This document shows, piece after piece, positions 1-10,880 of a stretch of 34,327 bases of DNA. The position numbers were made by a program, and so were the translations under genes. How positions within the stretch are numbered: the stretch's first letter is position 1; each line of letters opens with the position of its first letter. Source of the stretch: Bacteroidales bacterium. GTDB taxonomy: Bacteria; Bacteroidota; Bacteroidia; Bacteroidales; F082. The notes under the pieces were generated by a model, which did no database searches, was not told the origin of the DNA, and saw only the letters and a program-made list of their open reading frames with translations. The stretch lies in contig JAFTUF010000005.1 in the NCBI GenBank assembly GCA_017466405.1, positions 1 through 34,327 on the forward strand. Direction: 5' to 3'.

Positions 1-45
1 ACTAATGTTATTATGTATTTTTTCATATTTTTTTCTTTTTGAAAA

Positions 46-130
46 GTCAACGGACAACGGTCAACGGTCAACAGTCCTTGGGTATGCATTTTGGACGAAG
101 TCTGTTGTCTGTTGTCTGTTGACTGTTGTC
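46..130. repeat. Inverted pair of heptamer arrays
   Basis: Four heptamers of the type GTCAACG (46-73) face four heptamers of the type TGTTGTC (103-130), and the second set is close to the reverse complement of the first, so the segment can fold into a long imperfect hairpin. It ends 2 bp from the stop codon of the leftward giant surface-protein gene and may act as its terminator (inference). Bases 1-45 are AT-rich and hold no gene I can support. Confidence 0.8.
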
Positions 131-132
131 AT

Positions 133-3100
133 TTATAAAATTATTTTTTGTACTTTAACTCCTTCTTCATTAATAACTCTGATAATGTATGCTGCATTAT
201 TGAAGCCGCTTACGTTGATTCTGTTGTTTGCGCTTTCAACTTCGCTTGTATAGACAACTCTGCCCATCATATCGATGATTTGTACAGAGCCTTCGATGTT
301 GAGGATGAGGTCTTCGCCAGAAACGTATGCAAAATGGCTGTTGTCTGTTGGCTCTTGTCCGTTGACTTTTAATTTAACGATGAAACGGTTGTAGTCGTCG
401 TTGCTTGTTGCTGTGAAGTTATAGTCTTCAACCAATAAATTTGTCTCAATTCCTGTGAAGCGGTCAACCAAGGTGAGAGTTTTGAATTTACCATTAGGTT
501 GAGCAGCGATGGTGTAGTTACCCATTTGAGTTGCTTCGAAAGCCACGTCAACCATTGTCACTTCTCTGTCGAAGTTAGCTATACCGTAACGGGTGTCGTT
601 CTTAGCCACGAAGATGTTAGCGATGCCTTCGTTGAAGTTTTGGAGTTTGTTGAAGCCTTCTTTTTCAGCGCCGCTGAGGCTGATGATCACGTTATCGCTG
701 CCTTCTTTGCCTGTAGCGATGAGGTTGATGCTTTCAACTTCCTCATCTCTACCTCTCTTACTATTTGCATTTCCGTAAGATACTGAAGGATCATAGTCTG
801 TTGTCTTTACGAAGAATGCGTCGCCAACAGGGATAGTGCCAGTTGTTTTGTAAACATAAGCATTACCTGCTGCATTTAATACAGCGCAGCCTTCTACCAT
901 ATTTTCAAAATAGAAGCCTCTTAAGTCCATATCGAAAGTGAATGGGTTGCCGAGGAGGTGGAAGTTAGCGTGGTCTTTGATTGAACCTGTTGTATATGAC
1001 AGATTATCCCATGAATAATATTGAGCGTTGCTAAGTGTACCAGCAAAAGAAACTGTTTCTTTTTGTTCGTGCGACAACAAATAACCAATGCCTAAATCGA
1101 AATTAGCTGACTCAAAAGCACCATTGTTAGCTGCGTCTTTATGGTTAAGCCATTCTGCCTCTTGTGATCCATCATATTTATACAGGTCGTAGTCATATTC
1201 ATCAAATCCAAAGCCTGTGAATTGAGGTATATTGACATCTGTGAATGGAGAAGCCACAAAGTTCCATCCTTCTCTATTATTTGCGGACCACACCTCAGGT
1301 CTGTTAAGATTCATATTTAATTTAGCTTTTACACCTTCTGATGTATGATATATTTGAGCGCCGTCTTCGATGAGCAAGTTAGCTGCTACAGTATTCATTA
1401 AACGGCCTCCCACCATAAGTTTTACTCCTTCAGGAAGTGTCAAGGAAGCTTCACTATTTATCATCATATTTTTGACTATTGCGAGGTCTGTATTCAACAC
1501 TGCTGCTGCATCTATAACGACATTCACAGTGGCGGTTTGCGGATAAGTTCCTTTCCAGTTGAGAGAATTGTTCCATTCTGTACCGTGTGAGCCATTAAAC
1601 ACACTCCAAGCCTCTTTTGTAATAGCAGGAGACCAGTTTACTTTTGACTCTACCATTGGAACTGCTGATACTACAACATCGTCGATGTATGTTTCTGCCC
1701 ACTGAGCTGTAGTGCATTCAAAATCAATTTGAATTCTCTTACCAACATAATTACTCAAATCTATCTCTTTATATTGATATTCTGACACATTATTATCCAT
1801 TTGGATATATTCCGATTTATTATCATCTAAGTTTGTTACCTTTACCTTAAAATTATTATCTCCATAATTTTGACCCCAATATATATACGGATAATTCTTG
1901 TAATAGAAACTTAAAGAAGCTGAGTTACATTCATTCAAGTCAATTTCTGGGGTGGTTAATTTAAATATATATCCAGCTGTAGAAGAACGTACATAAGCAC
2001 TATAAGTTCCATTATTAGCATACGAATTATTGAAGTACCAACCTTGTACATAAGCATAGCTTGAATATCTTGTCCATCCTTCTGGCATTACACCACTGTG
2101 TTCAAATCCTTCATTTATAAATTGTGCAATTCCACCAGGAGCATAAGTCGTAACTCCATATTCATATTTGTCACCTATTTCCAATTCTGCCCAGTCTGCA
2201 TCATTTAATTGCTTTGCTGTAATGTCGGAAGCTATCTTTTCAACATCGCCTGTTTCAACATTTCTTCTATAAACATTGAATGTTTCATATTCGTCTGTTG
2301 TCCATGTTGTCTTTGATTCATAGTATAAATCAACAGATGTAACGTCAATTGACACTTCAGGATTTGGTTGCATTACCATTTCAATTTCATTATCCATAAC
2401 ATGTTCAACCTCAACGCCATTCATCTCTGCATCTTGATAATCTAATCTTGAAACAGATACTTTATATGAACCAACCAATGTTTCAACCTCGAACTTACCT
2501 TCGAAGTCTGTAGTTGTATTATAAGTCATTGACTCTCCAAACTCTTCTGTACCTGCAATAACAACTACTGCACCACTTACTGGATTTGAACCATCGGTAA
2601 CAATACCTTTTATAGTACCTTTACCTTTTACTTTAATATTAACTGGTTCAGATTTCTTCGATTCTCCTAAGTCAGTGTAAACAGCTGTTACAGTGATATT
2701 CACGCCTTCTGTGCTGTTATAAGCATTGATTGCAAAGGTGTATTCATTGCCTACTATTGCTTCTGTATTAACTTTCTTGTCTCCAACATAAACATTATAT
2801 GAAGCAGCTTTTTCAACAGTATTCCATGAGATAGTAATCTCGTCGCCTATAGTAACAATCTCCTCATTTTCTGTTATTACATTTTCAGGAACGCCTAATG
2901 TTGTAACGAACGACCATGTTTCGGTTTCAGTTGTACCTCCATCATTTACAGCTTTTACTGTCCAGTAATATCTTGTATTATTCGATAAGTTTTCTGTTTG
3001 GTAGAAATTGTTTTCAACTTCTATAGCCTCGACATTTTCTAAAGATTCATTTGTTCCGATATATACATTGTATGATGTTGCATATTCAGCAGCTTCCCAA

Positions 3101-5056
3101 GTTAATTTAGGATTATCTTGTTCTGTTGCTTCATTTTCTGGAGCTGTGAGAGCGAATGCTTCTGGAGCAGGTATAGGTTCTGTAGAGAGATTTACAGTGA
3201 AAGCCTTATCAGCTGCTGCAACTAAATAGTAAGTACCAGAAGGATATTGAACGCCATCTATTGCAGGAGCAACGCCTCTTGATTTGCTGCTGCCGTCAGT
3301 GAGAGCGAGGTTGTCGATAGCTATAAAGTAATTATCAGTAGATTCATAATGTTTAAATCCAATATATAATGACTTTCCATTGTAGTCTTTTAAGTCTAAA
3401 TCTACATGTTTTACTGTATAACTATAACCAGAATTATAAGTTTCTTTAAAAATTTCTGTAAAATTTTCTCCATCTTCAGATACAACGACGGCATAAGTCT
3501 CACCATAATTAGTTGTTAATACATCATAAGAAAATTTTGATAAACTGGTAATATGATATTTGTCTTTTGTATAGAAAATATTAATAGGAGAATATGCTAC
3601 CCATGAACCTGTTTCATTACTAGAGGAATAAGATGTCATTGCTAGGTTTACATTTTGATGTGGAGTTTTTATAGCCCAATTATTTCCATCACCATCTTCA
3701 TCTATTAAATTAAACTTGCTTATATCTTGATCATTAAAGTCAAATGAGAATGTGGTAGGACCTTCCGGGCCTGCTTGAACACCTTCGTAGTTGTTGTTTG
3801 AAGAAGGACCATTATTATTTGCCAAATCATCTTCTTTGTAGATAGCGAGGTAGCTGTCGGCAAGGTTTGTACCTGTTACTTCTGCAGATACGACAACATC
3901 TTTATCTAAAGTAAATTTATAAACAGCGTCTGGAGCATTGCCGTCTGTTTCTTCACCTGGAAGGATATAATCGTCGTGTAAGTTTGCGAATGTAGGAGTG
4001 TCGGTAAAAGAGTTGTTTGCATCGAAAGTAACTGTTGTAAATACTTCTATTGCATCTGGTGCTGTAGCTGTGTAAGCAGTAGCTGTAACAGGAATTGTTA
4101 TATCATCTACGTCATCAGCTTTAATTGTGATAGCACCTTCTTGAGTACCTGTAACGTTAGCTTCTTTATTGTAACCTACGTTAAAAGTGAAATTTTTACC
4201 CAAATCATCACTTGTAGGGACATTGCTAATTGTGAAGAAATTGTTATTGCATGTTACGCTTGTAACTTTTGTAGAAGAAACTTCAACTTCAACATCTTGA
4301 GAAGATGTTGTTTTCTCTGACCAGTAGTCGCCCATTCTTACATCGCCGAGAGCGATAGAAGTTTCAGAGACTTCGATGCTTGGTTCTTGAGTTGTAGCTT
4401 CGATGGTGAATTGGACGTAACTATTACAACGGACGCCATTCCATGAAAATCCATTATCATTGTAAAAATCATCTCCGCCCAAACCTACGGCATTTGATGG
4501 ATTATATGCATTAGAATCGTTATTAACAGATAATGAACGTCTTCCTTCTGTTATATAGGAATAATATTGCATCTGTCCAGATGTGTAATAATATTCCGAA
4601 ATATCATTTACACAAAGTATTAAGTTTCCACCTTCATAATAGAAAGGTTTATCCAATGTGATAGTGGTCCATTCGTCAGTATTAAAAGAAAGTTCTCCTT
4701 CATACAACTTCTCCCCCGTCATGTTCACCCAATCAGTAGATGATGCAAAGATTGACTTATCAGTGTGTTGTAAATAAATCTGAAACTTTCTATTTTGAGG
4801 ATATAACTTAGCTTTAAATGAAATCTTTGTTATGTTACCTGTCTTATTCTGCATTTCTGCAGCAGTGAAAATTTGTTGTGTTAAAGAGTATGCACCATAA
4901 TTTCGAGAAGGGATGTAGTATGAAGCTCCATCTGCTTCTCCATCCGCATTACCAATAGTAATAGTTTGTGTTTTTTGTGCATTAAGCACATTTAATTTCA
5001 CCCCCCCCAAGTAGGGTTAGGCACATCAGTGCTAAAAGAATAAATTTTTTCTTCAT
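133..5056 (-). CDS. Giant T9SS-sorted adhesin-like surface protein; signal peptide out of frame at a G8 tract
   Basis: No enzyme activity is visible; the protein is probably exported and anchored to the cell surface by T9SS. The open frame as read starts only at a TTG (5010) and lacks a signal peptide. Just upstream, an ATG at 5056 encodes a classic signal start (MKKKFILLALMCLTLLG) in another frame, which stops after 24 codons. Dropping one G from the eight-G run at 5001-5008 joins the two frames into a protein of about 1640 residues with a likely cleavage site LNA|QKTQ. Body (numbered from the TTG): N-terminal module shared with the divergent neighbour (about 15-200), choice-of-anchor-J/cleaved-adhesin-like modules (about 420-575 and 965-1118), two FN3-like domains (615-797), a carboxypeptidase-regulatory-like domain (798-880), and a C-terminal T9SS type A sorting domain (about 1560-1625). 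The frameshift may be real, phase-variable or a sequencing error. Confidence 0.88.
339..366. repeat. Heptamer array inside the coding sequence
   Basis: Four consecutive 7-bp units (TGTTGTC-like) lie within the reading frame of the giant surface protein and encode residues about 1549-1558 (VNGQEPTDNS), the linker just before the sorting domain. The unit closely resembles the intergenic array at 103-130. Confidence 0.75.
5001..5008. repeat. Homopolymeric C8/G8 tract (possible contingency locus)
   Basis: Eight C on the + strand (eight G on the coding strand) fall within the signal-peptide region. Eight G gives a 24-codon peptide ending in TAA. Seven G would fuse the signal peptide to the rest of the 1640-residue protein. 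Such tracts are known elsewhere as slipped-strand phase-variation sites. Confidence 0.8.
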
Positions 5057-5495: not shown

Positions 5496-8400
5496 ATGAA
5501 AAGATTATCATTTTTTCTGATGATGTGTTTTATGATATCATGCGGTATCGTCAAGGCACAGGTCCCAGTATTAATAGGTTCTGGTGACAATCATTGCGGA
5601 GCTCTTCCTATTGAAGAGTATTTTAACTACAGTATCTCACAGCAGATTTACACTGCCGAGGAGATGACTGCCACTCCTGGCGCTATCACCAAGGTAGCTT
5701 TCAAGATGGCTAACGCTTCATACGTAGAACGTAACATCAGCGTTTATTTAGCTAACACCGACAAAGAATCATTCAGCAGCACCACCGACTGGGTGACTCT
5801 CTCAATGCAAGACTTGATGTTCAGCGGAAACGTCTTCTATCCTGGCGCAGCTGGCGACTGGTTGGAGATTGAGCTTACAAAGACTTTCAACTATAGCGGA
5901 GGTAACATCCTCGTCTGTGTCACCGACCAGACTGGCTATTCCGTAGAATATGAAAGCGACGCTCGTTTCTACACATACTCAACAGGTTCAACACCAAGAT
6001 CTCTTAACAAGGCAAGATCACAATATTCATTCAACGTGACTAACCTCGCCGACGTCTATGGTAACTATCAAGGCAGCAACCCTTATTATAACAACCAGAT
6101 AGAATTCACCTTGACAATAGAAGGCGCAGAAGAAAATCCTATCGTCATCACTCCAGATCCTATCGCATTGGGCGAACGTCCAGTAGGCGCATGGATGAAT
6201 CCTTACGAAGTGGAAATACAATCTAACTTGGCTTCTTTAAACATCACATCAATCGAATCTTCTAACTCAGCATTCAGCTTGACAGACGCTGACACTCCAA
6301 TGGAAGTGACATACGGCAACCCTGCTACAATAGGCGTTTCTGTCGTAAGCGGAAACGGCGAGATAAGCGGACAACTCACATTTAGCTACGAAGGCGCTGC
6401 AGAAGATAAAGTCGTCGAGATGACTGCAACAGCATATACCCCTGTCAGCCCTGACGTATGGGAACTCGCTAAGGAAGTGACAGTATTCCCTGCCATGGAA
6501 ATGCCAACAGTATCGACATTACATCATAACTACAACTTGCCTTTCGCAGGTGAAGACGGTAAAGACGCTGTCTATAAACTTGTCTTGACAGCCGACAAAC
6601 TCATGACTGTCACGGCAGGCGGTGCAAACAGCAAAGCTATCCTTTACGAAGAAGGTTTCGGCGGCAAAGGCGGTCCTGATGTTGACAACTATTATCCACT
6701 TCAAACATCATCATTTATTTCAAATATGTTGGTTCCTGCCGGAACTTATTATTTGGTGGCATCTACAACAGAAGCTTCATTGTTAGTTTACATCAGCTTA
6801 AGCGATGTTCCTGCTCCAGGCAAGACTTTCAATCCTAACCCAGCTGATATGACAGCTGACGTTACAAACCCAGAGCTCTCATGGGAATTCGGTAACAACA
6901 CAGTAGAATATCAAGTGTTGTTAGACACACAAAATCCTCCTCAGAACGTTGCCGTCAACTGGACCAACGATCTCGAAACAGAATATACAATAGCAAACCT
7001 TTCTAACAACAACATCTACTATTGGCAAGTCAACGCTCGTAACGACGGCGGCACCACCAATGGCGACGTATGGTCATTCTCAACTCCTTTCGACGCTCCT
7101 ACTGGCTTGACAGCATCCGATTACACTATCTACGAAGGCGATGAAGTTGTTGTCACATGGAACGAAGTCGATAATGACGTTATCTTAGGTTATAACATCT
7201 ACGTCAATGGCACAAAGAAAAACGATGAAGTCATCACCGACAATACATATACTTTAGATGAGCTTTCATACAATATTGGCGGTTACAGCATCAGCGTGAC
7301 ATCAGTCTATGCTATCGCTGAGTCATCTCATAGCGAAAGCGTAATAGTTTACGTGACAGGAACAAACAACATCTTAGGTAATGTTTATGAAATAGACGGC
7401 ACTACAGGCATCAGCGGTTGCACCGTTACTTTTGTCGGTCAAGATGAATTTGGAACAGACAGAACATATACATTCAATACAAACGACGGCGGTGCTTTCA
7501 GCGGCACAATACTCTGCGGTGAATATGTCGCTACAGCTACAGCAGAAGGCTACCAAAATGCAGAACTTCAAGTCAGCGTAAATCACGGCGCTCCAACAAC
7601 AGTCAACTTTATAATGTATGAAGATTACAATACCGTTGACTATGTTGAAGCTTCATTGAGCGGCGATGCTGTTTTAGTTGAATGGGATATGGAAAGAGTT
7701 CTCAAAGGATTAGCAGAAATAGAAAATGTATTCAGCTCAGAAAACAATCCTAAAGAACCAATCGAAGAGACACGTGCTTTCAACAGCTATAAGGTTTATA
7801 GAAATAACATCAACACAGAAGACTTCGTCAACGTAGGAAGCAACATCACTACAACATCATACACCGATAATGGATGGAACGATGTAGAACCTGGCGCATA
7901 CAAATGGGGTGTCTCTGTCGTTTATGATGGCAACCGCGCTGAGCAAGTCGTGATGGAAGAAGACTTCGAAGGCGGCAGTATGCCAACAGGATGGACAATC
8001 TTCGAAGACCCAGAAGATCCTGATTATTACATCTCCGACTGGGGTGTTAAAACCAGCGCTTCAGGTTACAACGCATACGAAGGCAACTACGCAGCTTTCA
8101 GCCAAGGCTCTCCTGTAAACTCTGACTTATATTTGGTGACACCGGCTATCGACCTCAGCCGCTGCCCTAACGCACAGATGAAGTTACACTACATCTCACC
8201 ATCATGGGGACCAGACGTCAACACATTCTTAGTAAAGATAGCTAACAGCCCAACAGGCCCTTGGACAGTGCTCTACTCATCAGATGCCGATAACGTATCT
8301 GCATGGACAGAAATAACTATCGATTTGTCAGACTATACTTCAGACGATACATACATCGCATTCGTCAACGATAACAATTACGGTTATTGTGTAGGTGTCG

Positions 8401-10880
8401 ATAACATCATTATCACCAGCGACTCTAACGAATCTGAAATCGTATGGTCAAACATCCTCGATAAGAACATGACCACTGAAGTTACTGTGACAGCAACAAC
8501 AAACAGCAACGACAGCGCTGAAGGTACTGTTGTAAACTTCGTCAACTTAGTAGAAGCAGGTCAAGATATCACTGCTACATTAGACGAAAGCGGTACTTAC
8601 ACATGGAACAACTTCCGTAAAGGTAAATATGAATTGAGCATCAGCAAAGCCGGATATACTTCAGACGTTGAAGGTATCGTCGTTGAAATCTGGGAGCCTA
8701 AAGAATTTGAATGCCAACTCTCAGAAATATTCTACGCTATCGAAAATCTTTACGTATCACCAACAGGTTGGGTTATGTGGGATAAACCACAAACAAGAGA
8801 CGTTCTCTCATACGACATCAAGTTGAACGGTATCTTACAAGACAATGTCACAACAACATATTATCAACATGACATCGACGCATACGCTTTTGAAGAGGGC
8901 AATGTTTATACAACAACAGTCATCGCTAACTATACTGAAGGCTCAAGTGCTCCTGTGAAATATTCATGGACATTCTCAGAATGTGATAACTTTGAAGGTG
9001 CTTCAAACGTATTTGTTGAAAGCGTAAACGGAAGCAACGTCTTGACATGGGATATGCCAGAAGTAGATAACGCTAACGAAGCAGAAGGCACATGGATGTT
9101 CTACGATGATGGCTATAATGTTGACGGCGTCGGTCGTTTCAGCGGCGGCACATTCTACTGGGCTATCATGTTCACAGCAGACGACCTCAAACCTTACGTA
9201 GGTCAGAAACTTACTAAAGTGTCAACTTTCGACTACGCTCTCCACGATGGTACTATCTCTATCCACGTCGGTGGCTTTAACGTCCCTGGAACAATGGTTC
9301 ACACACAAGGTTACACATGCTACGGCACAAAACAATATGTTGAGTTCTCTTTGACAGAACCTGTCCTCATCGGCAACGAAAACATCTGGATTGTATTCCA
9401 TAACTTAAACGGTCAATATATCGCTCCTGCCGGTATCAACACAGGCAATCCTAACGGACGCTGGATCTCAGAAGACGGTGTCGATTGGTACGATATGTTC
9501 GCCGACATCGAATGGGATTACACATGGAACATCAGAGCTTACGCAGGTTATGATGGAGAATATCCTGGCATGGAAAAAGAAATCATAGGAACAATGGTTT
9601 ACCGTAATGGCGAGCTCCTCACAGAAGAGCCTATCGAAAGCGACAGCTTCACCGATGAGATTTCTGAAGAAGCAGAATATTACGTCAGAGTGGTTCACGG
9701 CGGATTGCCAAACGTTTCTTACTACGCAATGTCATGCAAGACATACGACCAAAACTCTATGCCTTGCGACGCTCCTAAAGACCTCTACGGAGAATACACT
9801 TATAACGGCAGCAACTCATTCGGCGCAACATTGACATGGCCTTTCACACCAGCAGCATCTAACTGGTTGTATTACGACAACAACGAATTTGCAACAACTA
9901 TAGGCACTGGCGGTAGCGGCGAGTTCTTCTGGGGTATCATGTTCCCAGCAGCTTATCTCGAAGAATACGACGGCTTGAGCATAGACAAAGTGTCTATGTA
10001 CGACATGACAGCTCACACAGGAACAGTATATGTATTCTACGGCAACGAATTTGGTCCAACAGACTTATTACATTCCCAACCTTATACTGTAAACGGCACA
10101 TCATCATGGGTTGAACTCGAATTGACAACATCAGTACCTGTCGATTCTTCACGCGATATGTGGGTTGTTATGAGTTGCAACGACGGCACCGACTATCCAG
10201 CATCTTGTGGTCCTAACACAGGCGACGCTAATGGACGCTGGTGTTCTGTAGATGGAATCATGTGGATGGATCTCTCTTACGCTCTCGGCGAAGCTTACAC
10301 ATGGATGCTCCGCGCTCACCTCACAAGCGAGGCTAAATCTCAAGAAATAGTGCTTCAACCAATAGAGTTCGAACAACACAACACTAACGCAACAGTGTCG
10401 ATGTCGGCTCCAGGTAGAAATAACTTCTTAGATCATTACAACATCTACCGCGGAACATCTGACAACAACTTCGAATTAGTTGGCGAGACAACAGAGAAGA
10501 CATACTTCGACGAAGTCAATGAAGCTGGAACATTCTATTATCAAGTTAAGGCTGTCTATGTCAAAGACGGCGAAGAATGTGAGTCAGAGGCTGCTAACGC
10601 TTACGGTAGCAACGAAGATTATGTCATCGTGGAAGTCAACTCAATAGATGAAAACGGAGCTAACGGCTTGATGGTTTATCCTAACCCAGCAAGAGACTTC
10701 GTTAAATTGTCAGCTCTCAGCGGTCAGCTCTCAGTGGTAAGAGTATATAACACTTTGGGAATGATGGTAGAAGAAATTGAAGTCAACTCAAGTGATGTTG
10801 AAATCAATATCTCCGACTACAATCCAGGTATCTACTTCTTCAACATTGACGGTGAAGTCGTTAAGATAATTAAGAATTAA
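5496..10880 (+). CDS. Giant T9SS-sorted multidomain adhesin-like surface protein (1794 aa)
   Basis: Probably a secreted surface adhesin or matrix protein; no catalytic motif seen. Residues 1-22 form a signal peptide with a likely cut at VKA|QVPV. Residues about 25-195 match the N-terminal module of the divergent neighbour (shared QQI[FY]TA.EM, STDWV and Y.GGN[IL]L.CV patterns). Then follow FN3-like domains (about 435-530 and 533-620), a carboxypeptidase-regulatory-like domain (625-708), a choice-of-anchor-J/cleaved-adhesin module (819-978), a second regulatory-like fold (about 993-1078), two related copies of a roughly 150-residue module (about 1198-1350 and 1453-1610), another FN3-like domain (1628-1700) and a T9SS type A sorting domain from about 1724 (YPNPARDF...VYNTLG). 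Codon choice favours C-ending codons (AAC, ATC, GTC, TAC) far more than much of the neighbour, which suggests high expression. It faces a convergent gene across a hairpin at 10910. Confidence 0.93.
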   Translation: MKRLSFFLMMCFMISCGIVKAQVPVLIGSGDNHCGALPIEEYFNYSISQQIYTAEEMTATPGAITKVAFKMANASYVERNISVYLANTDKESFSSTTDWVTLSMQDLMFSGNVFYPGAAGDWLEIELTKTFNYSGGNILVCVTDQTGYSVEYESDARFYTYSTGSTPRSLNKARSQYSFNVTNLADVYGNYQGSNPYYNNQIEFTLTIEGAEENPIVITPDPIALGERPVGAWMNPYEVEIQSNLASLNITSIESSNSAFSLTDADTPMEVTYGNPATIGVSVVSGNGEISGQLTFSYEGAAEDKVVEMTATAYTPVSPDVWELAKEVTVFPAMEMPTVSTLHHNYNLPFAGEDGKDAVYKLVLTADKLMTVTAGGANSKAILYEEGFGGKGGPDVDNYYPLQTSSFISNMLVPAGTYYLVASTTEASLLVYISLSDVPAPGKTFNPNPADMTADVTNPELSWEFGNNTVEYQVLLDTQNPPQNVAVNWTNDLETEYTIANLSNNNIYYWQVNARNDGGTTNGDVWSFSTPFDAPTGLTASDYTIYEGDEVVVTWNEVDNDVILGYNIYVNGTKKNDEVITDNTYTLDELSYNIGGYSISVTSVYAIAESSHSESVIVYVTGTNNILGNVYEIDGTTGISGCTVTFVGQDEFGTDRTYTFNTNDGGAFSGTILCGEYVATATAEGYQNAELQVSVNHGAPTTVNFIMYEDYNTVDYVEASLSGDAVLVEWDMERVLKGLAEIENVFSSENNPKEPIEETRAFNSYKVYRNNINTEDFVNVGSNITTTSYTDNGWNDVEPGAYKWGVSVVYDGNRAEQVVMEEDFEGGSMPTGWTIFEDPEDPDYYISDWGVKTSASGYNAYEGNYAAFSQGSPVNSDLYLVTPAIDLSRCPNAQMKLHYISPSWGPDVNTFLVKIANSPTGPWTVLYSSDADNVSAWTEITIDLSDYTSDDTYIAFVNDNNYGYCVGVDNIIITSDSNESEIVWSNILDKNMTTEVTVTATTNSNDSAEGTVVNFVNLVEAGQDITATLDESGTYTWNNFRKGKYELSISKAGYTSDVEGIVVEIWEPKEFECQLSEIFYAIENLYVSPTGWVMWDKPQTRDVLSYDIKLNGILQDNVTTTYYQHDIDAYAFEEGNVYTTTVIANYTEGSSAPVKYSWTFSECDNFEGASNVFVESVNGSNVLTWDMPEVDNANEAEGTWMFYDDGYNVDGVGRFSGGTFYWAIMFTADDLKPYVGQKLTKVSTFDYALHDGTISIHVGGFNVPGTMVHTQGYTCYGTKQYVEFSLTEPVLIGNENIWIVFHNLNGQYIAPAGINTGNPNGRWISEDGVDWYDMFADIEWDYTWNIRAYAGYDGEYPGMEKEIIGTMVYRNGELLTEEPIESDSFTDEISEEAEYYVRVVHGGLPNVSYYAMSCKTYDQNSMPCDAPKDLYGEYTYNGSNSFGATLTWPFTPAASNWLYYDNNEFATTIGTGGSGEFFWGIMFPAAYLEEYDGLSIDKVSMYDMTAHTGTVYVFYGNEFGPTDLLHSQPYTVNGTSSWVELELTTSVPVDSSRDMWVVMSCNDGTDYPASCGPNTGDANGRWCSVDGIMWMDLSYALGEAYTWMLRAHLTSEAKSQEIVLQPIEFEQHNTNATVSMSAPGRNNFLDHYNIYRGTSDNNFELVGETTEKTYFDEVNEAGTFYYQVKAVYVKDGEECESEAANAYGSNEDYVIVEVNSIDENGANGLMVYPNPARDFVKLSALSGQLSVVRVYNTLGMMVEEIEVNSSDVEINISDYNPGIYFFNIDGEVVKIIKN
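10710..10737. repeat. Heptamer array inside the T9SS sorting-domain coding sequence
   Basis: Four 7-bp units of the form TCAGCTC/TCAGCGG lie in frame and encode about residues 1739-1748 (LSALSGQLSV). They fall in the early part of the sorting domain, after YPNPARDFVK. Confidence 0.7.

Follow-up and report, generated by a model that had tools for sequence, protein, structure and literature searches.

A run of eight G separates the signal-peptide start of a giant surface protein from the reading frame of its body in the window, by which we mean the whole stretch of 34,327 nucleotides analyzed here. As judged from sequence comparison, slipped-strand phase variation of export at this tract is very probably the best explanation of the arrangement. 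The locus would most likely be a phase-variable gene of a known kind, found in a bacterial group and on a type of cargo for which such genes are not usually described.

Results

The tract, which is the proposed slippage site, lies at positions 5001 to 5008 of the minus strand and is read as eight C on the plus strand. A short frame on the same strand (4982 to 5056) begins with an ATG at 5056 and the hydrophobic signal-peptide start MKKKFILLALMCLTLL, runs through the tract out of frame and stops after 24 codons, the translation being M..LLGGGEIKCA. The body opens at the tract and extends over 1,625 codons (133 to 5010, minus strand); frame reading and domain searches indicated a giant surface protein resembling T9SS cargo. 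The first ATG codon of the body stands at residue 53, and the other two frames of this stretch contained 100 and 185 stops. Frame reading thereby confirmed the original prediction that eight G set the signal-peptide frame apart from the body. The presumed signal-peptidase cut, placed by eye from the sequence, falls between A and Q of LNAQ (4975 to 4986, minus strand).

Domain searches of the body gave three matches above curated cut-offs, all on the minus strand: a Cleaved_Adhesin domain (PF07675; 3304 to 3720; 34.1 bits, cut-off 21.4), a CarboxypepD_reg domain (PF13620; 2377 to 2616; 40 bits, cut-off 32.3) and a T9SS type A C-terminal sorting domain (TIGR04183; 139 to 300, residues 1571–1624; 36.1 bits, cut-off 23). 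The sorting domain was also matched by Pfam PF18962 (29.3 bits, cut-off 27). The body carries, with these two matches, the C-terminal sorting domain that marks T9SS type A cargo. The Sec signal peptide expected of such cargo is out of frame in the window as assembled; a signal-peptide-like start is in frame with the body in two relatives, G029 and G028. We also considered that the body could be a separate cytoplasmic gene starting inside or after the tract, as a TTG at 5010 and a GTG at the tract end are both in frame with it. This is very improbable indeed: a T9SS sorting domain requires prior Sec export, and in G029 and G028 the signal peptide shares its frame with a body of the same type.

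The source genome, G000, is a draft of 2.43 Mb in 69 contigs and is 95% complete. It encodes the T9SS translocon gene SprA (2,566.6 bits) and gave 114 sorting-domain matches (E ≤ 0.001), indicating that T9SS export is likely in use. As a contrast to the gene with the tract, its divergent neighbor (5496 to 10880, plus strand) encodes an intact T9SS cargo protein of 1,794 amino acids; its signal peptide looks ordinary, and a G tract is absent. A comparison with plasmid records gave no match. At the other end of the body, positions 1 to 141 of the window (no strand assigned) match another contig of this genome, C35, exactly over its first 141 bases, and on C35 the match to a T9SS paralogue likewise starts at base 136; this identity is a likely reason why both contigs break there. 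A repeat of GTCAACG-like units was observed behind T9SS genes in window positions 1 to 141, in C35 and in C59, with at least 61 matches in the genome (40 of 272 candidates scored). The T9SS paralogue on C35 (minus strand) showed an A8 directly after its ATG, which puts its 1,434-codon frame out of frame with that ATG; this A8 is possibly a second switch that uses another base.

The tract was then compared with the sequence around it. Besides positions 5001 to 5008, no G or C run of at least six was found anywhere in the window. GGG accounted for eight of the 641 Gly codons in the 21 window ORFs, and two of the eight belong to the tract; similarly, the tract is the one GGG GGG among 48 Gly-Gly pairs. 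The main alternative named in the original prediction was an error of assembly or sequencing, under which the true tract would be in frame in all cells. This reading draws on the draft state of the assembly and on homopolymers being a weak spot of some sequencing methods. Against it, A/T runs of seven to eight bases occur inside six other window ORFs and leave those frames open, and an error gives no reason for keeping a rare GGG GGG pair at this place.

Genome-wide, six runs of at least eight G and two runs of seven G were found in G000, so the length of the tract alone is not rare. Its improbable feature is its place together with its recurrence in relatives. Two of these eight runs split a gene near its start, namely the window tract and one in a Type III Mod gene on contig C32. 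A transposase gene, which we take to be IS5-like, precedes each of the runs on C4 and C8 by a few dozen bases; the C4 protein carries DDE_Tnp_1. The remaining four runs are outside the listed ORFs of at least 100 codons, the one on C10 being 52 bases before an ATG. A whole-genome excess of G runs was set aside as evidence, as six runs of at least eight G in 2.43 Mb looked uninformative by themselves.

Next, homologous signal peptides were searched for in 99 genomes of the genus, which are assemblies of 8 to 460 contigs, using a pattern that covered the end of the tract and the cleavage region and tolerated three mismatches. The search found seven loci, distributed over six of the 99 genomes and including that of the window. 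All seven share the VLNAQ codons, which is partly built in, as the pattern demanded these bases. Uninterrupted tracts were present in five. In addition to the window (G8, out of frame, 1,625-codon open body), G022 had two copies, both on contig C23, one with G8 out of frame and a body open for 1,783 codons, and the other with G6 out of frame and a frame of 1,383 codons to the contig end, 17 of which precede the tract. G009 (C14) and G011 (C46) both had G7, in frame up to the contig end. The last 127 bases of these two contigs are identical, which resembles one assembly-graph junction, and the two are therefore best counted as one observation. In the other two loci the tract is interrupted and in frame: G029 carries GGGCGGGG and reads for 1,131 codons from ATG to stop, and G028 carries GGGTGGAATG and reads for 2,094 codons. 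The G029 gene shows a second break further down, after which it continues in another frame. As both interrupted forms read through in one frame, the signal peptide and the body belong together in nature.

Alignment of the seven loci from ATG to cut site showed that the tract alone varies by a non-multiple of three, all other length differences being whole codons. The window locus shows three features of contingency genes: a 5′ coding repeat whose length sets the frame, length variation with in-frame and out-of-frame states (here between different species or paralogues rather than strains of one species), and coding capacity preserved behind an out-of-frame tract, as in the window and G022. The best protein relative was found in G022, at 53% identity. 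Comparison of the window body with copy 1 of G022 over 1,540 aligned codons gave 54% identical residues and 494, 421 and 691 differences at codon positions 1, 2 and 3; this position-3 excess would be the pattern of a protein under selection, though it is modest at such a distance.

These comparisons bear on several readings at once. The relatives favor a switch over an error, since a one-off sequencing error would not turn up again in a second genome at the corresponding codons. The in-frame relatives do show the intact form of the gene, as an error would have it, but out-of-frame tracts stand at homologous codons in G022 (G8 and G6) and in other cargo of G008, G010 and G011, described below. 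Error remains the main rival, with a small probability, and leaves the relatives unexplained. A second reading is a recent null allele of this lineage, by which the gene would stay off for good, without reversible switching. It would agree with the sole copy seen being out of frame, and frame loss may be common in the family, given the A8 of the C35 paralogue and the later break in G029. However, the body has remained long and open, another species has out-of-frame homologues that are open as well, and tracts both shorter and longer than the in-frame length occur; the null allele is accordingly quite improbable. The original prediction had held that a switch would be contradicted by related strains in which the gene is broken for good and its tract interrupted in a fixed form. 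Such a case was not seen at the tract, since G029 and G028 are in frame there and G029 is broken only further down. A third reading is constant production of the protein through frameshifting of the ribosome at the G run or slippage during its transcription, with the tract tuning the level. G runs can be slippery, and several members are out of frame; lengths of 6, 7 and 8 would nevertheless require shifting in one direction, in the other or not at all, and some members are in frame already, which gives this reading a similarly slight chance. The comparison of the tract in related genomes, which the original prediction had proposed, found it uninterrupted at 8, 6 and 7 G and favors the switch. 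The proposed slipped-strand on/off switch is supported, at the level of sequence, by homologous tracts of 8 and 6 G out of frame and 7 G in frame, with open bodies of 1,625 and 1,783 codons.

We then looked for G tracts in the signal peptides of other T9SS cargo. Candidates were taken from 173 genomes of the family with the pattern ATGAAR, 18–48 bases and G7. In the 99 genus genomes, this pattern gave 69 overlapping matches compared to 29 in a backwards control (sums made by hand from the table). It is thus weak by itself and too impure for counting loci, and it was used for candidates only. Twenty places were picked by eye among the matches listed and read in all frames. Three further T9SS proteins of the genus with a signal-peptide G tract emerged: a protein of ~1,170 amino acids with G8 in frame (G008:C11), and two BspA-type LRR proteins with LRR_5 and T9SS domains, having G8 (G008:C38) and G9 (G011:C62), both out of frame. 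The T9SS domain scored above the NCBIfam cut-off in all three, and that of G011:C62 fell below the Pfam cut-off (25.3 versus 27). The body frame of G008:C38 has an in-frame ATG 24 bases before the tract. A homologue of G011:C62 with one G fewer (G8, out of frame) was found in G010:C108, where the contig ends; the two are identical over the 18 bases that precede the tract and the 32 that follow it, and 48 of the 60 preceding bases match. Contigs G009:C14, G011:C46 and G010:C108 all end exactly 32 bases past their signal-peptide G tract, which could reflect tract heterogeneity or shared assembly-graph repeats.

In total, nine uninterrupted tracts in T9SS-type signal peptides were found. Three of them read in frame, namely those of G009, G011 and G008:C11, or two of eight with G009 and G011 counted once; random lengths would give one third. 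One or two such tracts were found per genome, with two each in G022, G008 and G011. Apart from the T9SS cases and an acyltransferase described below, most of the 20 places read had no long body or had the tract well inside a gene (for example L164, L166, L168 and L172–L178). Three more were left out of the count: L167 (G017:C2) has G7 in frame in a signal-peptide-like start of a 115-codon frame; L171 (G102:C113), from another genus, has G7 in frame in the signal-peptide-like start of a TonB-dependent receptor; and L169 (G018) has G9 in frame and an fn3 domain, with no sorting domain in the 611 residues scanned. Separately, a small reading frame (MKIEL..) was observed to be split mid-way by a G run in four genus genomes (G012 and G034, and by pattern G026 and G030); the run is G9 in G012 (L177) and G034 (L178).

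A census of long G runs, irrespective of their position, was conducted in 11 genomes, which were picked as close by the body search or as tract-bearing, not at random. From 82 listed tracts of at least eight G, two same-flank duplicates were dropped, leaving 80. Five of the 80 were in T9SS signal peptides compared to 0.13 expected, a value calculated from 1,202 sorting-domain matches (E ≤ 0.001) and 75 bases per signal peptide. The Poisson probability of five is 3 × 10⁻⁷. Two pairs among the five are homologous, so the cases are not independent; counting homologous cases once leaves three, with a probability of ~3 × 10⁻⁴. Thirteen of the 80 tracts were followed by an open frame of 100 codons or more, and the other 67 by none. 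TAA stood directly after 51 tracts, many in recurring contexts and some near transposase genes. The frameless tracts and these recurring contexts indicate that the genus has long G runs for other reasons as well. Several dispersed families of G runs were seen to share flanks on both sides, one of them lying behind transposase genes in G000.

Among the 13 frame-bearing tracts are the five in T9SS signal peptides, that of the Mod gene and those of two acyltransferase-like genes, each with an in-frame G9 close to its start; of the acyltransferase-like matches, that of G008:C26 was above the cut-off (75.4 bits, cut-off 31) and that of G033:C100 below it (21.7 bits). Acyltransferase-like genes at L194, L205 and L170 have G8–G9 near the start; the tract is in frame in two of them and seems to be out of frame in the third. 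They are candidates for switched surface-sugar modification.

The Mod gene of the source genome was also compared with relatives. A G9 at positions 574–582 of locus L020 on contig C32 splits the start of this Type III Mod gene, which adjoins an open Res gene; a frame-splitting repeat in mod, as seen in phasevarions, is thus present. However, the gene has a second break at 1278–1323, ~700 bases past the G9. Of 29 relatives fetched, 20 N-termini could be placed and nine could not, and none of the 20 showed a run of more than four G within the 100 bases examined, so that a tract of variable length was not found in these orthologues. The absence of the tract from the 20 placed relatives indicates that the C32 gene is not a conserved phasevarion, and the second break weakens this reading further.

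Discussion

The proposed mechanism is as follows. Slipped-strand mispairing during replication would add or remove G at the tract, whereby the signal-peptide frame and the T9SS-cargo body would be joined in some cells and separated in others. With the frames joined, the protein would be exported by Sec and then by the T9SS; with the frames separated, as in the assembled G8 state, only the 24-residue peptide would be made and the body would not be exported. We infer that the change in tract length is frequent and reversible within one population, that it arises by slippage, and that the phenotype of the switch is surface display. Should T9SS cargo also be switched by homopolymer slippage, tools that look for inversions overlook it, and such genes would come out of annotation pipelines as broken or as lacking a signal peptide.

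On a wider scale, the chances are slightly better than even that the uncultured gut Bacteroidales of this genus carry a set of G-tract contingency loci with export as their shared target, located in the Sec signal peptides of unrelated T9SS families, both adhesin-like multidomain and BspA-type LRR proteins, and tracts near acyltransferase starts. These would generate random combinations of surface proteins without DNA inversion.

A close parallel in design is given by the opa genes of Neisseria and the hop/oipA genes of Helicobacter pylori, which carry repeat tracts inside the signal-peptide coding region. As in those genes, a simple repeat lies in the signal-peptide codons of an outer-surface protein, and the repeat number sets the frame between leader and mature protein. 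The window locus differs from them in its G homopolymer, its Bacteroidota host and its apparent T9SS substrate, and its switching is a proposal. Poly-G tracts occur in the phase-variable genes of Campylobacter jejuni and H. pylori. The loci described here share with these the G homopolymer, the frame-shifting effect, the surface-related genes and the presence of several loci per genome. In contrast to those species, genomes of this Bacteroidales genus gave only one or two tracts each in T9SS signal peptides, and for most long G runs of the 11 genomes no long frame follows. The repertoires of simple sequence repeats in the phase-variable genes of C. jejuni and H. pylori are treated in a review (PMC11868660) in the text available to us.

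Phase variation in Bacteroides is spoken of as DNA inversion in the accessible portions of two reviews (PMC11868660 and PMC12632263). The window locus resembles the invertible promoters and other inversions of gut Bacteroidales, as covered in those portions (PMC12632263), in that a surface molecule would be phase-variable and the order is the same. However, the change here is in tract length. A conserved, palindrome-like GTGCTTAAYGCAC site just after the tract was considered as a site of inversion or shuffling and rejected; it occurs once in the window, where no inversion was seen, and the longer signal-peptide pattern gave one match in G000.

The original prediction that a homopolymer switch on T9SS cargo would be unusual for Bacteroidota agrees with the emphasis of these reviews on inversion. 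However, an excerpt on the FSD adhesin genes of Ornithobacterium hominis, of the Flavobacteriaceae, speaks of a "putative phase variation mechanism" and names neither the repeat nor its position (PMC13183296). Those adhesins are likewise from Bacteroidota, but the window protein belongs to another domain family and its host to another class. A word search of the retrieved text of the 2019 O. hominis genome paper (PMC6421346) gave no word beginning with "phase". Among the matches listed, mostly from outside subscription journals, no titles or abstract openings described homopolymer phase variation of T9SS cargo or in gut Bacteroidales. Within the phylum, excerpts of two further papers suggest slippage as a possible source of variation at a polysaccharide locus of Bacteroides fragilis (PMC3090145) and report inversion in the Type I systems of Prevotella intermedia (PMC5608340).

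Finally, 5′ homopolymers have been argued, in the part of the article at hand, to be a general regulatory device in prokaryotes, and poly(A) and poly(T) were over-represented in its survey of 99 genomes (PMC2831843). The window tract resembles the tracts described there in lying near the 5′ end, where it could inactivate the gene reversibly, and differs from the over-represented poly(A) and poly(T) in being poly(G).
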